A stretch of 64,000 bases of DNA, taken from positions 40,955-104,954 of the IMG/VR virus record IMGVR_UViG_3300042691_040362, one strand, 5' to 3'. Position 1 is the stretch's first letter. Each line of letters opens with the position of its first letter. The stretch is from a virus. The notes under the pieces are model-generated. The model saw only the letters and a list, made by a program, of their open reading frames with translations, ran no database searches and was not told the DNA's origin. Position numbers and translations under genes: made by a program. Below, one piece after another: positions 4,727 to 40,735 of this stretch.

Positions 4727-4902
4727 TGGAAGAAGAATTTACACCACCATCACAGGTAAACAGATTGGAAATAATCAATCACGCCAAAAACGATAAACCA
4801 GTAGGACGAATCCTTACTTTGTATAAGGAATTAGGACATTTTGAACACATTGAAGTAGTATATCAAGATAACGGAAAAACATTAAAAATATTTTTAGGAT
4901 GA
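4726..4902 (+). CDS. Small hypothetical protein
   Basis: 58 residues, starting on the last base of the previous stop (TAATG). Mixed alpha/beta, ending KTLKIFLG. Overlaps the next start as ATGATAA. Coupled reading frames support it as a real gene. Confidence 0.6.
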   Translation: MEEEFTPPSQVNRLEIINHAKNDKPVGRILTLYKELGHFEHIEVVYQDNGKTLKIFLG

Positions 4903-5057
4903 TAATAAGCATTATTGGAGGTACAGCAATTGTATTAAGTTTGATTGTACCATATTTTATAAAAAATAAACGAACCGGAAATTTTATTGGAGCAGTACTA
5001 GCTGCTTTTGCTTGTGGTTTGTTTTTAGGTGAATTAATTACTAAATATTTTTCATAA
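4899..5057 (+). CDS. Small membrane protein, two transmembrane helices
   Basis: 52 residues with two hydrophobic segments (about 2-19 and 30-47) joined by a basic turn (KNKRTG), a hairpin topology in the inner membrane. Start and stop both overlap neighbours. Function unknown; its position among early genes argues against a late holin. Confidence 0.65.
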   Translation: MIISIIGGTAIVLSLIVPYFIKNKRTGNFIGAVLAAFACGLFLGELITKYFS

Positions 5058-7791: not shown

Positions 7792-7989
7792 ATGAAGCAA
7801 ACAGCAGTTGAGTGGTTGGTTGAAAGTTTAACGGAATTAGGTGTTGATTTATTAAGTCATAACTTAGAGATTCAACAAGCCAAAGCAATGGAGAAGGAGC
7901 AGCATCAGCAAACTGCAGCACACTTTTTTCCTACATCATTAAAGAAAGAAGATTTTGAACAATATTATACAGAAACTTATGAAAAATGA
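7792..7989 (+). CDS. Conserved phage hypothetical (TAVEWL type)
   Basis: 65 residues starting MKQTAVEWLVESL. The IQQAKAMEKEQ middle and YYTETYE end are typical of a family found in very many Bacteroidetes and marine phages. An upstream in-frame ATG at 7768 lies inside the previous gene and is less likely. Helical; role unknown. Confidence 0.75.
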   Translation: MKQTAVEWLVESLTELGVDLLSHNLEIQQAKAMEKEQHQQTAAHFFPTSLKKEDFEQYYTETYEK

Positions 7990-8189
7990 ACATAGGACAG
8001 GAAAGAATAATAAAGAAATACGCTTGGTTACCAACTTGGGTTTGGGTTGGGAAACAAGGAAATAAAGATAAGTGGATTTGGTTGAGACCATTTTACGAAA
8101 AACAAAAATATGTTAAGTGGAATGATTGGCAGGAAGGTGTGGGAGACCATTGGAAGACAAGTTGGAAATGTGAACGTCAATATATTTAA
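7986..8189 (+). CDS. Small Trp-rich hypothetical protein
   Basis: 67 residues with ten tryptophans (for example LPTWVWVGKQGNKDKWIW and WNDWQEG), basic overall. This looks like the phage family in which a WLP-VWVG motif precedes a short beta sheet. Overlaps the stop of the previous gene. Confidence 0.65.
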   Translation: MNIGQERIIKKYAWLPTWVWVGKQGNKDKWIWLRPFYEKQKYVKWNDWQEGVGDHWKTSWKCERQYI

Positions 8190-17489: not shown

Positions 17490-17674
17490 CAAGTTCGTAT
17501 ATATGGATATATGGATATACGTATAGTTGGGAGTATGTGACCTAGGGATCAACGGGAATGGGGTGCAGGGATTGGGGAGACACAACCCCTTCCCACACCT
17601 CCCCACCCCACTTTGCATCGACAAAATATATATGTATATACAACGACACACGCAAAATACAGTAAAACTTGCGG
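17490..17674. other. Gene-free island with inverted G-run and C-run tracts
   Basis: 185 nt without a credible gene. It starts with ATATGG-type tandem repeats and a TATACGTATA segment, then four G-runs (17554-17577) and four C-runs (17586-17609), then a TCGACAAAA-TATATATGTATATA element (17618-17640), then the class I promoter for the next gene. Short frames over it are not coding-like. Confidence 0.7.
17554..17609. repeat. G-quadruplex-type motif facing a C-run arm
   Basis: G-runs GGG, GGGG, GGG, GGGG separated by 3, 4 and 3 nt, then 8 nt, then C-runs CCCC, CCC, CCCC, CCCC. Either strand fits the G3+N1-7 quadruplex rule; the two arms can alternatively pair as an imperfect hairpin. Confidence 0.7.
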
Positions 17675-17703
17675 GGATTACATGGTTTTTTAACATATAT
17701 TTA
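17675..17703 (+). promoter_or_regulatory. Class I promoter
   Basis: GGATTACAT, 12 nt, TATATTTA, before 17724. Confidence 0.82.
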
Positions 17704-18025: not shown

Positions 18026-18098
18026 AGTCAGGTGGCGGAATGGATGGGCAACGTCAACTAATTAATAGATACAGGTTCGAATCCTGTCCTGACTACCA
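18026..18098 (+). tRNA. tRNA-like element lacking a normal anticodon arm
   Basis: A perfect 7-bp acceptor stem (AGTCAGG with CCTGACT), a discriminator A, an encoded CCA, and a perfect T arm (ACAGG, TTCGAAT, CCTGT). The 5' side after the acceptor (TGGCGGAATGG) resembles a leucine tRNA D arm, but only 16 nt remain between the D region and the T arm, too few for an anticodon arm plus variable loop, and no 5-bp anticodon stem can be drawn. Total 73 nt with CCA. It may be a degenerate tRNA-Leu or a tRNA mimic. Confidence 0.6.
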
Positions 18099-18550
18099 AA
18101 TGTTGGCTGAAAAGTTAGGCTTTTGTTTCTATATAGGGAAGATGACTAAGAAACAGGAACTAGAGTCTATTAGAGGTACAATCATCAGTATATCTCTTAC
18201 AACATTATATAGTTCTTTGCATTTTTACTTACCTTCACCATATGTATAATGGAACACAAAAGGGATCCTCACAGTAGGACAACGAGAAGTGAATGCTAGT
18301 CAGGACTGCTCTCAACCAAGTAGTGCTCAAAAACGCGCTCTTTACACATATTAGTTACAACAAAAGCATTAATGCACCCGGAGTAATATACCGGTTTTTA
18401 AATTTTGACAAAAATGTTCCCGCCTCTAGTCGACCCAATTAGATGAGCAAATAACATGAGTTAATGATACAGCAAAACAATGTGAGTTAAATTTATACAT
18501 AAAGCTGGTTGATAATTAGGTTGACTGGCTACCTTACTGTTCAAATACTA
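18099..18550 (+). other. Gene-free transcribed stretch after the tRNA-like element
   Basis: About 450 nt with no credible gene. Visible structure: GTTTCT...AGAAAC pairing (about 18124-18155), a second copy of TAGTCAGG near 18299, and CCGG, 9 nt, CCGG followed by TTTTT near 18379-18400, a weak terminator. Together with the promoter at 17948 this outlines a possible RNA of about 400 nt that begins with the tRNA-like part. The remainder to 18550 shows nothing I recognise. Confidence 0.45.
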
Positions 18551-18579
18551 GGATTACATAACATATATTCGTATATTTA
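18551..18579 (+). promoter_or_regulatory. Class I promoter
   Basis: GGATTACAT, 12 nt, TATATTTA, before 18605. Confidence 0.82.
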
Positions 18580-18604: not shown

Positions 18605-18706
18605 ATGAAAAAAGCAATTCAGAGTCCAGTTATTTTAATTCCAACTTGGTTTATTACCATTTATTATGTTGGATTAGTATTAAGTATTATTTTTACTCAA
18701 AGTTAG
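18605..18706 (+). CDS. Micro membrane protein
   Basis: 33 residues: MKKAIQSPVILIPTWFITIY then VGLVLSIIFTQS, one transmembrane helix. It sits alone between two class I promoters. Function unknown. Confidence 0.55.
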   Translation: MKKAIQSPVILIPTWFITIYYVGLVLSIIFTQS

Positions 18707-18734
18707 GATTCCAGAATTTTAGTTCGTATATTAA
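18706..18734 (+). promoter_or_regulatory. Class I promoter for the structured RNA
   Basis: GGATTCCAG, 12 nt, TATATTAA; next element is the GC-rich RNA, with no start codon in a usable frame. Confidence 0.75.
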
Positions 18735-18740
18735 TTAAAT

Positions 18741-18953
18741 AAGTAACCGGCCCCAGTAACGGGGGATAAGTTAAAGTGAAAAGGACGGTTCAAACAGGGG
18801 AGCCATTTAGGGACAAGAGGATGAAATAAGCCCGCCCTCGGCTCACCCGATTTAAAGGTGGACATAATAGCCACCACGCGAAGGCCGGCCAACTCATAGA
18901 GTCGTCGAGCCACTTAAACCATGGAGGTCCACAACGTTGGGCCTCCATTTATT
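18741..18953 (+). ncRNA. GC-rich structured RNA of unknown family
   Basis: About 210 nt, clearly GC-richer than its surroundings, bounded by its own promoter and terminator. Visible pairings: CCCC/GGGG hairpin (18751-18764); CCGGCC (18747-18752) with GGCCGG (18883-18888), a long-range closing helix that competes with the first hairpin; GGG-GAGCC with GGCTC-a-CCC (18797-18804/18840-18848) extended by AGGG/CCCT (18809-18812/18835-18838); GGTGG/CCACC (18857-18861/18871-18875); then the terminator hairpin at 18922. I do not recognise RNase P, tmRNA, 6S or group I intron core motifs in it. The only overlapping frame is antisense and not gene-like. Confidence 0.7.
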
Positions 18954-18957
18954 TATT
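18922..18957 (+). terminator. Terminator of the structured RNA
   Basis: TGGAGGTCC, 8 nt, GGGCCTCCA (9 pairs, one G-U), then TTTATTTATT. Confidence 0.8.
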
Positions 18958-21307: not shown

Positions 21308-21601
21308 GATTTACTTATATATGCGTACGTACGTATGCAATTATAAATACTGGCCCATGCGCGCCGTCGTCCATATAGCGGGCGGGCGCGTCGGGACAGG
21401 ATATGCCACCAATTCCCACATCTTATACAACTTTTACGCCTCGACTTGTATATACGTATATACATATATACCCATAAACATATCTAAATTTTCAAACTAA
21501 CCCTTTTTGCCAAACCTTAAAAGGAACGCACCCAACCAAAAAAACGATCTTTTCATTATCGACAAAGTATATACGTATATTTATAATAAACCATTTATCT
21601 A
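21308..21601. other. Gene-free GC-rich and palindromic island
   Basis: 294 nt with no supported gene. An 18-nt near-palindrome TGCGTACGTACGTATGCA (21322-21339); a GC-rich block about 21352-21400 with CGCGCC/GGCGCG pairing (21360-21365/21385-21390); TCGACTTG-TATATACGTATATAC (21441-21463); and TCGACAAAG-TATATACGTATAT (21559-21580), which runs into a class II-like TATTTATAA before the next gene. CCTTTT/AAAAGG pairing occurs near 21503-21524. Composition is very unlike the flanks. Confidence 0.65.
21578..21586 (+). promoter_or_regulatory. Class II (late-type) promoter
   Basis: TATTTATAA then TAAA, 15 nt before 21602. The overlapping TATATTTA (21576-21583) could instead serve an early sigma factor. 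Confidence 0.5.
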
Positions 21602-22219
21602 ATGAATTTAACAGAGATCTACATTAACGTATTTTTTGAGAATTTTTTTAAAGAACTACAAGAAGAATACCCATTAAATGAGGAATCAAATCCAGCTCTT
21701 CAAGAATTGCTCACTAAAGCAAACGAGCTTGTTTTTAAAAAGTTTGGTATCAATCCAAGTAATAAAGTTTATTTTATAGCAGGTTCGGCAGCCCTATATC
21801 TTTTCCCAGTTTTAAGAGACAAATTGGATTTACGTAGTACAGTAGGTGATTTAGATATTATTATTCCAGAAGCTAAATATTGGAAACAAGCAGGTCTCGA
21901 GGGACAAACCATCTATCGTCCTAAAGAAGACAAGCGTATTGAGGTGTTTACTGAGTGGGATCCTGCTAAAGCAGGGGGTGATTATGAAAATATAAAAGTA
22001 AGAAGTACCTCAGATATTCTAAAAGATTCATTTCAATCTCAAGGCTATTGGTTCATGAGTTTAATAGATATTTTTGATTATAAAATGAAGTTAGGTCGTC
22101 CTAAAGAAAAGGATATTCTTGATAAAATTAAAGCATATCAAGACGGAACTATTACCGATAAAATTAGTTTATTAAGACAATTACTTTCTTATTATAAAAA
22201 AGAAGATATTAAAAACTAG
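21602..22219 (+). CDS. Nucleotidyltransferase-fold protein
   Basis: 205 residues. FIAGSAALYLFP (58-69) and VGDLDIIIP (81-89) are the GS and D-x-D motifs of the DNA polymerase beta-like nucleotidyltransferase superfamily, with a further acidic strand RIEVFTEWD near 108-116. The C-terminal half is helical. Members modify proteins, RNA or small molecules by NMP transfer. It is not clearly of a known toxin or antitoxin subgroup. A class I promoter follows at its stop. Confidence 0.72.
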   Translation: MNLTEIYINVFFENFFKELQEEYPLNEESNPALQELLTKANELVFKKFGINPSNKVYFIAGSAALYLFPVLRDKLDLRSTVGDLDIIIPEAKYWKQAGLEGQTIYRPKEDKRIEVFTEWDPAKAGGDYENIKVRSTSDILKDSFQSQGYWFMSLIDIFDYKMKLGRPKEKDILDKIKAYQDGTITDKISLLRQLLSYYKKEDIKN

Positions 22220-37949: not shown

Positions 37950-40735
37950 TGGCTTTAAAAGATATTACAATAACAGGTTCAATAGGTAGCTATCCTACTC
38001 TATCATACGGGCAAAAAACTTATATTTCATCAACAGATGAAGAATCATTTCCGATAGAACATTTTACTGGAAGCGCTGGGGGAGCAACTCCTAATTTTAA
38101 TGGTCAATATTCAACAACAGATTTATTTGTTAACATTACTCAATCATGGAGTGGTTCAACAAATACTCAAGTTGGCATTGTTGATTTTGTTCATGATACT
38201 CAAGAAGAATTCATTAATGGAGAATATAGTGGTTCAGGTATAGAGGTAACTCATCAAAGATTAATTGGGGAGGATTGTATTCAACTCTTAAATGTTAGTA
38301 CTGTTCCTGTAAATTATAAACCTTTCTTTTATGTAGCTATAAACACTAACCCATTTAATCCTCCTGATCCTAGTTATGGAACTACAATAAATAATTTTTT
38401 AAATTTTAACACATCTCCAAACTCGGGGGAAGTATACTTACTTAGCATACAATATGTAATACAAAAACCTGGAGGAGGATTTTCTAATATTAGAAAAGTT
38501 ACTCATATTAAAGTTAATAGATTTGATGATCAAGGAGATGATAATACTTTATCTTTACAAGAATTAAATTCATTAAGAATATTATTTAGTGATTTAGGAC
38601 CAGTTGATTTTCCAATACTATCAATTACCGAATATCCAACATATTATTTATATACAACTGATAAAACATTACCTTATAGTGCTACTAGCTCAATAGATAA
38701 TAATGTATTAGATTTTAGTTTTAGTGCATCTGTAGCTTCATTAGTTGTAATTGATGGGCCTGCGATTCAATATGTAAATAATTATAATTTAAATACTGAT
38801 CCACAAAACGCCTTCGATCCAATTTCAGGTATATATATTACTAAAAATACACCTAATGTTGTATTAACATATACTGCTTCATTCACTGCTAGTTACTCAA
38901 CTGGAGGAACTTTTGCAGAAAAATTATTTGTTATAAGTAATCTTATAAATCCAGGTTTTAGTACAAGTAATATAAATTTAGGAGCAAATACTTTTAGTGG
39001 AACATTTAATGCAATAGAAAATATATCACAATGTCAAGCTGCATTTTCATTTGAAAGAGTAACAGGAGCAGGTAATCTTACAATTACTGATTTTCAATGG
39101 CAGTTCACCCAATCCGTAGCTCCTAGTTCTTCAACTAATCTAACAGTTTTAAGTCCATATTTATTTGAAAATTTTGAATATAGTGATTGTAATGCTTTAT
39201 TTAATAATGCTACTACTTTAGAATTAGACCCAAATTTTTATAAAGTAAATTATGATACTGGATTATTGGTACCTACAAATCAACAACAGATTTTAGATGG
39301 AACCGCAGAATTCGCACCTGTAAAACCATATAATTATTCACTAAATGCTCAGATTCTTCCAAGATATAATGGTGTAAAAGTAGTTCAACAAAACAAAAAT
39401 ATCTGGACTTCGGGTGATATTGCTCCTTCAAAAACACCTTCTTTACAATCATTAAGTACATATTTTGCTTATTTTGAATGGATGGGGGGAACCACACCTG
39501 AATTAAAAGATAAATTTGCTGCTAGTCTTAAATATTTAATCAATGAAGACGGGGATGTTTTGACCCCAAATATCTCAAGTTCATATTATTACAATCTAAT
39601 AGACAATTTTGAAACAGGCCAAAAAGTAAATGTATCCTTATACTCAGATGTTGGGAGTGTAACAAATGTAGGTGGTCCCAAATCCATACTAAGAGCAGGA
39701 GCTATACCATGGGGTATAATTGCTTCCCAAACAGGAAGTAACCAAAATGTTCAAACTACAATGTCATTTGGAAATGAAACCATACCATCAATCCCCGATT
39801 ACTATTCAGTATTCGGAAAATCAAGTCCCCAACCAATACTAACTGGTGGTACAGAATATATAAGTATAAATACAGATATTGTTAATTCCCCAAATACTTC
39901 TATTTCTTCTAGTAATTCTATAAAAATAGATTTAAATTCAAATTTAACTACAGTATCATTTAAAGTTACATTAAGAGCTACTCTTAGCGCGGCTGAACCT
40001 AATCCACCATCAACAGCACAGGCATATGTATATCTACAAAAATCTACAGATAGCGGCATAACCTGGACTAATGTAGCTTCATCTCTGTGGAATTTATCTC
40101 CTGGAACTAATAATTCTAAAACATTAAGTTCTCCATTTTCTACTCCATATAGTTCGGATAGATATAGATGTATGGTAGAAAATGATTCTAACTTTTATGA
40201 TATAGAAATTAAACATATATCCCCAAATAACACTACATTTACTATAGATCAAAATCCTAGAAATGCAGCAACTACTGCATCTGCCGCTCAAAATTATTGG
40301 CGTACAGGATCATTATCTAAAAATATATTGACAGGATCTCAATTTTATACTCTATATAATTCCTCACCACCATTAATTCAAAAGAACTATTCTGCTTCTG
40401 GATATTTTGATTTCTTACCCTTTACACTACAAATTGGGGATCAAATTAGATTTGAAGGAGATGAAAACCAAACATATGAAATTTATAATATAGATAATAG
40501 TGATGTAAGTCAATCTCTTTACTTAACAATAGATAGAAATATTCCTGATGGTACAAATTTAAATTCATTTTTAATCCGACGTTATCATCCACATCCTAAT
40601 TTTATAACATTAGATTGGAATGGTAGTGGATTTACAGGTGGTCCTGGATTTTTATTCCCTGAATATGCTAATAATAATCTTACTAAAAACTTTAACAATA
40701 TAATTGTGAAACTTAAAGAAAAAAACTTAATTTAA
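37949..40735 (+). CDS. Very large tail/fibre protein
   Basis: 928 residues, beta-rich, Ser/Thr/Asn-rich. Starts ALKDITITGSIGSYPTLSYG; contains several repeats of strand-turn segments and LVVIDGPAIQYVNNYNLNTD; WMGGTTPELKDKFAASLKYL near 510-529. Composition and length fit a tail fibre or baseplate peripheral protein that may bind the cell surface. No clear tip or chaperone domain. Confidence 0.68.
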   Translation: MALKDITITGSIGSYPTLSYGQKTYISSTDEESFPIEHFTGSAGGATPNFNGQYSTTDLFVNITQSWSGSTNTQVGIVDFVHDTQEEFINGEYSGSGIEVTHQRLIGEDCIQLLNVSTVPVNYKPFFYVAINTNPFNPPDPSYGTTINNFLNFNTSPNSGEVYLLSIQYVIQKPGGGFSNIRKVTHIKVNRFDDQGDDNTLSLQELNSLRILFSDLGPVDFPILSITEYPTYYLYTTDKTLPYSATSSIDNNVLDFSFSASVASLVVIDGPAIQYVNNYNLNTDPQNAFDPISGIYITKNTPNVVLTYTASFTASYSTGGTFAEKLFVISNLINPGFSTSNINLGANTFSGTFNAIENISQCQAAFSFERVTGAGNLTITDFQWQFTQSVAPSSSTNLTVLSPYLFENFEYSDCNALFNNATTLELDPNFYKVNYDTGLLVPTNQQQILDGTAEFAPVKPYNYSLNAQILPRYNGVKVVQQNKNIWTSGDIAPSKTPSLQSLSTYFAYFEWMGGTTPELKDKFAASLKYLINEDGDVLTPNISSSYYYNLIDNFETGQKVNVSLYSDVGSVTNVGGPKSILRAGAIPWGIIASQTGSNQNVQTTMSFGNETIPSIPDYYSVFGKSSPQPILTGGTEYISINTDIVNSPNTSISSSNSIKIDLNSNLTTVSFKVTLRATLSAAEPNPPSTAQAYVYLQKSTDSGITWTNVASSLWNLSPGTNNSKTLSSPFSTPYSSDRYRCMVENDSNFYDIEIKHISPNNTTFTIDQNPRNAATTASAAQNYWRTGSLSKNILTGSQFYTLYNSSPPLIQKNYSASGYFDFLPFTLQIGDQIRFEGDENQTYEIYNIDNSDVSQSLYLTIDRNIPDGTNLNSFLIRRYHPHPNFITLDWNGSGFTGGPGFLFPEYANNNLTKNFNNIIVKLKEKNLI

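Follow-up and report, generated by a model that had tools for sequence, protein, structure and literature searches.

Our analysis points to a noncoding RNA gene on the plus strand at positions 18744 to 18953 of the window, the 64,000-nucleotide stretch of viral DNA under study, which very likely encodes a real, independently transcribed RNA under selection. This window comes from a virus record of 104,954 bases (G000) that carries T4-like genes. In its large terminase, identity reaches 62% with the enzyme of Flavobacterium phage vB_FspM_immuto (Immutovirus, Baltic Sea) and 53% with that of Microcystis phage Mel-JY01. Since the terminase is closest to that of the Flavobacterium phage immuto, the host is probably a Flavobacterium-type bacterium.

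The GC content of the region is 53%, compared to 30.1% for the 64-kb window, and among the GC-rich islands of the window (150 nucleotides with at least 47% GC) it is the sole one without an open reading frame of at least 60 amino acids. These results agree with the initial annotation, which had described the region as much richer in GC than its surroundings and fitted by no gene. On the plus strand, no reading frame longer than 21 amino acids fits both the window RNA and its homologue in a second virus (see below), and the minus-strand reading frames are not common to the two sequences.

The claim that the RNA comes with a promoter and terminator of its own was also corroborated. A two-box motif (TAGGATTACA-N12-GTATATT) is present in 44 copies with the exact 12-nucleotide spacer in the 105-kb genome, and counting all spacings there are 53 forward matches versus 6 reverse matches and 6 to 12 matches in shuffled sequences. 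The copies are located mostly just 3' of a stop codon and shortly 5' of the next start codon, and the TAG of the motif often doubles as the stop codon that ends the gene before it. Considering the fixed spacing and the position between stop and start codons, the motif is most likely the promoter of an array of genes. A copy with one mismatch (TAGGATTCCA-N12-GTATATT, plus strand, 18704-18732) ends 11 bases 5' of the RNA, whose start site is predicted at about 18738-18744, while an intrinsic terminator formed by an 11-bp hairpin (plus strand, 18921-18948) and followed by TTTATTTATT is the strongest of 10 terminators in 9 kb (3.7 expected). The 3' end corresponds to the T-run after the terminator, and the predicted transcript is about 205-215 nucleotides long. 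The presence of a promoter before the RNA, a terminator after it and another promoter copy, that of the downstream gene, starting at 18957 indicates that the RNA gene forms what appears to be a complete and separate transcription unit. Own promoter, own terminator and lack of a reading frame are the features expected of a phage trans-encoded small RNA, and all three were found here.

The homologue was located through a search with the neighbor gene at 21602-22219, which retrieved two contigs (L117 and L118) with identical local matches and 90% identity in that protein. The whole unit of promoter, RNA and terminator is present at 4300-4540 of L118, including the promoter copy and the stem and most of the loop of the terminator, and the RNA itself (L118 4336-4536) is 77.5% identical to the window sequence across 200 aligned positions, with 11 gap columns. 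A covariance model derived solely from the window sequence scored the L118 copy at 86 bits (E 5e-23), and blocks of 11-16 bases (ACGGGGGAUAAG, ACGGUUCAAAC, GGAUGAAAUAA and GCCACCACGCGAAGGC) are unchanged between the two, whereas most other noncoding DNA of 18100-18560 fails to align with L118. Moreover, the two viruses share the upstream gene and have different ones downstream, that of L118 with its own promoter, which suggests that the RNA cassette moves as a unit. Taken together, the promoter, the terminator, the absence of a reading frame, the conservation in L118 and the independence from the downstream gene argue strongly, at the sequence level, for a real and independent RNA gene.

Five helices are common to the window sequence and L118, namely P1, P2, P4, P5 and the terminator, all on the plus strand. 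In P1 (18745-18790), AACCG.CC (18745-18752) pairs with GG.CGGUU (18783-18790) around a loop containing the invariant CGGGGGAUAAG. This helix has nine perfect base pairs in L118 (AACCGUUCC/GGAACGGUU) versus five plus two with a mismatch in the window, includes one compensatory change from C-G to U-A, and is missing from the lowest-energy fold of the window sequence, where it costs 1.3 kcal/mol. P2 (18797-18848) joins GGGGAGCC (18797-18804) to GGCUC.CCC (18840-18848), with the invariant GGAUGAAAUAA (18819-18829) in its loop. P4 (18857-18875) pairs GGUGG (18857-18861) with CCACC (18871-18875) around the loop ACAURAURG and is directly followed by the invariant ACGCGAA (18876-18882). P5 (18883-18911) pairs GGC.CGGC (18883-18889) with GUCG.GCC (18904-18911) and carries an upper stem, ACUC/GAGU (18892-18895 with 18899-18902); its bulge falls on one strand in the window virus and on the other in L118. 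A pseudoknot between CGGGGG (18760-18765) and CCCUCG (18835-18840; CGGGGG/CCCCCG in L118) is possible, as this plus-strand pairing (18760-18840) fits both sequences, but a local AGGG/CCCU helix competes with it.

The initial annotation had proposed at least four supported helices; five are kept in L118, but the overall stability is weaker than proposed, as it rests largely on the terminator. In the two-sequence alignment, 98% of the helix columns are paired, compared to 24-44% when the partners are slid. On the other hand, the check for covariation came close to the outcome named as adverse to the RNA, that is, conservation without compensatory changes, given that only 1 of 31 pairs is compensatory, a number reached by half of the shuffles in a comparison of two sequences where most pairs are invariant. 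The fold energy including the terminator gave z-scores of -2.35 for the window sequence and -2.59 for L118, but without the terminator these values were -1.1 and -1.9 against base shuffles, close to chance; the alignment fold of the two sequences gave -1.8. We therefore regard a common structure formed by P1, P2, P4 and P5 as plausible. The long-range pairing of CCGGCC (18747-18752) with GGCCGG (18883-18888), also put forward at first, was not upheld: in the window sequence it lies 6.3 kcal/mol above the optimal fold, and in L118 it is reduced to 4 bp and costs 11 kcal/mol, with both strands engaged in local hairpins kept in the two viruses. An alternative long-range helix of GUUAAAGUG..GACGGUUC with GAGUCGUC..CACUUAAAC (-66.4 versus -67.1 kcal/mol) was also rejected, being absent from the homologue, and an HDV-like topology was dropped together with the long-range helices.

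At the gathering threshold, Rfam 15 returned no family match, RNase P, tmRNA, 6S, group I, HDV-like, GOLLD, ROOL and Y RNA included, and at E<=10 both homologues gave only chance-level matches far below threshold, which confirms the earlier statement that the RNA is not RNase P, tmRNA, 6S RNA or a group I intron. Neither ARAGORN nor RF00005 detected a tRNA or tmRNA at 18744-18953. Additionally, no TROVE-domain protein (PF05731), the protein criterion for a Ro/Y RNA system, was found in eight relatives or in the 105-kb record, which may be incomplete, and such a system was rejected on these grounds. When the viral collection was scanned with four exact patterns, copies of the RNA were recovered only from the window virus and the virus of L117 and L118, bearing in mind that exact patterns overlook diverged relatives and that many records are fragments. 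One of these patterns (GTGAAAAGGACGGTT) matched 22 loci, all of them unrelated except for the window virus itself. A blastn search of phages and plasmids detected no homologue, and a 39-nt match in Flavobacterium phage MaF61 was set aside since it is inside a coding gene. Covariance models searched against relatives totaling about 1.3 Mb gave only chance matches, of which the best fell where a helicase gene ends. The nearest isolate identified, Flavobacterium phage immuto (strain LMO8), has no detectable homologue. Overall, within the collections searched the RNA was found only in the window virus, including identical copies in two further contigs (L085 and L116), and in the virus of L117 and L118.

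With regard to function, we tentatively favor a stand-alone RNA gene that acts in trans by binding protein during infection, as a factor of host takeover, although the odds that this reading is right in full, mechanism included, fall somewhat short of even. Transcription would start at about 18738-18744 from the common promoter class of the virus and stop at the terminator hairpin at 18921-18948, and the resulting transcript of about 205-215 nucleotides would fold into the four local hairpins P1, P2, P4 and P5. The folded RNA may then act in trans during infection, possibly binding a host or phage protein as a decoy or scaffold. This reading is suggested by the position of the invariant parts (CGGGGGAUAAG, GGAUGAAAUAA, ACAURAURG and ACGCGAA), which are loops or linkers between helices, and by the lack of a visible base-pairing target in the virus's own genome, where the longest complementarity is 11 nucleotides, the same as for shuffled RNA; an antisense role toward phage mRNA was rejected for this reason. 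That these loops and linkers constitute a protein-binding surface is itself a tentative proposal, which we base on how the conserved loops are arranged and on the lack of other clues. The RNA may also be regulatory, as the initial annotation had suggested.

A base-pairing small RNA, the main alternative, in which an invariant unpaired stretch (for example GGAUGAAAUAA or CGGGGGAUAAG) would serve as a seed for host mRNAs and alter their translation, is possible if rather doubtful. Trans-encoded small RNAs typically have this size as well as a promoter and terminator of their own, unpaired loops are among the invariant parts, and a role of this kind was proposed by the authors of the PAK_P3 study for two phage small RNAs (PMC4933390). 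Nonetheless, complementarity to its own genome does not exceed the chance level of 11 nucleotides, and the invariant loops sit between conserved helices and not in an open tail. The position of the RNA between two same-strand genes, with a terminator at its end, could instead suggest a cis-acting leader, attenuator or 3' UTR of a neighbor gene, but we consider this improbable because separate promoters precede the RNA and the downstream gene (the latter at 18957), and the downstream gene is not the same in L118; the upstream gene, which both viruses share, would be compatible with a 3' UTR variant involving read-through transcripts. Upstream of the RNA there is also an open reading frame for a 33-amino-acid hydrophobic peptide (MKKAIQSPVILIPTWFITIYYVGLVLSIIFTQS, plus strand, 18605-18706), whose stop codon is the TAG inside the promoter box of the RNA gene and which has a counterpart at the same place in L118 (MKKAIQSPVVLVPTWFIFIHVVGIVLSIILTS) and no homologue in the phage collection or PHROGs. 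The proximity of a small hydrophobic peptide to a small RNA, kept as a pair in two viruses, is reminiscent of type I toxin-antitoxin systems with the RNA as antitoxin. Such an arrangement is nevertheless quite improbable, as the two genes are on the same strand without overlap, and complementarity of the RNA to the toxin mRNA, which defines these systems, was not found: when 710 window segments were ranked by duplex energy with the RNA, the peptide mRNA came 545th, and in L118 it was mid-list.

Equally improbable is that the RNA acts through a minigene, in which AUG-AAA-UAA in the invariant GGAUGAAAUAA would sequester peptidyl-tRNA(Lys) or ribosomes, as the bar minigenes of lambda do. These codons are kept in both sequences within the P2 loop, yet this is a single 11-nt match that could be due to chance in a structural loop, and the remaining RNA would be left unexplained. 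The GC content, unlike that of the virus, could also be taken as evidence of a host-RNA mimic acquired from the host, as the initial annotation had considered. This suggestion found no support and appears highly improbable, given that no homologue was found in Rfam or among the 10 bacterial contigs of a bacterial genome pattern scan, which gave only chance matches, or by covariance search in 395 Bacteroidota genomes, where the seven matches at E<=0.01 were weak, the best one was within a 481-amino-acid reading frame and the next two were without most of the helices; these searches leave room for a mimic of shape alone. Just as improbable is a degenerate protein gene or a chance GC-rich insertion. 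The fold energy without the terminator, being unremarkable, is consistent with this explanation, but conservation in the region is 78%, the gaps break the frame and blocks of 11-16 nucleotides are invariant, in surroundings where other noncoding DNA is mostly unalignable.

The region surrounding the RNA gene is rich in noncoding DNA, and a tRNA-like gene lies about 650 nucleotides away. This gene (window 18026-18094) belongs to a tRNA-Leu-like family of at least 12 sequences in four viruses, in which the acceptor stem AGTCAGG/CCTGACT and the T-arm are nearly constant and the D-arm is mostly so, while the middle part (about 15 nucleotides and up) is unlike in each copy and several copies are without a clear anticodon arm. 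ARAGORN detects 1 of 12, and the Rfam tRNA model gives 35-42 bits for the copies that it reports. Other copies are found in contig C1 of the same record (38596-38707, 38935-39010, about 39883-39966, 40199-40296 and 40552-40658), in L118 (about 1770-1855, 2013-2110 and 4900-5000), in L152 (9650-9741 and 9799-9923) and in L166 (about 18732-18800, minus strand), and several are placed between genes in the manner of punctuation. Directly 3' of a tRNA-like gene there is a 95-nucleotide noncoding block (window 18224-18318 and L118 5003-5097, 93% identity) that keeps this place despite the differing gene order in L118, includes AGTCAGG, the 7-mer of the tRNA-like acceptor strand, and is possibly a second noncoding RNA. 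Conserved noncoding DNA at 21320-21600 (L118, about 7890-8180) contains the palindromes GCGTACGTACGTATGC and ATATACGTATAT as well as a core rich in GC, and its skew turns locally to a strong excess of C over G; this segment could be a replication origin. Besides, the noncoding segment at 17500-17690 is rich in G and C and is followed by ATCGACAAAATATATATGTATATAC, which resembles ATCGACAAAGTATATACGTATAT at about 21560. In a related 163-kb virus, a GC-rich and mostly ORF-poor region with two tRNA genes inside (L152 13933-14787, corresponding to G001:C1 133933-134787) may hold further noncoding RNAs.

Among known systems, the closest in kind are the band C and D RNAs of T4, which are located in the tRNA gene cluster and cut from a tRNA precursor. 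Like the window RNA, they are small noncoding RNAs of a virulent T4-like phage, and their location is comparable to its position about 650 nucleotides from a tRNA-like gene, but the window RNA, unlike the T4 pair, is flanked by a promoter and terminator of its own, and a blastn search of the phage collection with the window RNA showed no close sequence relative. GOLLD and ROOL, which are present in phages and often near tRNA genes, and OLE are likewise orphan structured RNAs, from which the window RNA differs in its far smaller size and its lack of an Rfam match. The pRNA of phi29 is a phage-encoded structured RNA of similar size that serves a different packaging motor; the likeness is limited to structure and size, and here too the window RNA has no Rfam match.

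According to a 2016 study, no small RNAs had until then been known from a virulent phage other than bands C and D of T4; the study added two from the virulent Pseudomonas phage PAK_P3, and all of them are of unknown function (PMC4933390). The PAK_P3 RNAs (sRNA1 and sRNA2) are intergenic, as is the window RNA, and one of them lies between tRNA genes; however, they are about 100 nucleotides long and expressed late, whereas the window RNA is about 205 nucleotides long and has a promoter common to many genes of the virus. The PAK_P3 study also reports a T-loop-like 11-mer. The RNA described here has GGUUCAAAC, which in the window sequence belongs to P1 rather than to a closed T-arm. The window RNA thus appears to be the same in kind as the T4 band C and D RNAs and the PAK_P3 small RNAs, although the sequence family itself is new and absent from Rfam.

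Small RNAs of virulent phages have rarely been reported, and those reported are without a known function (PMC4933390). The clean cassette described here, consisting of a promoter and terminator with a homologue in another gene context, makes this RNA readily amenable to deletion, tagging and pull-down experiments. More speculatively, and with a rather low likelihood, it may be the first member of a new RNA class, compact and possibly pseudoknotted, in T4-like viruses of Flavobacterium-type bacteria, through which host takeover or counter-defense would be achieved by RNA only, via binding to a host protein or ribonucleoprotein.
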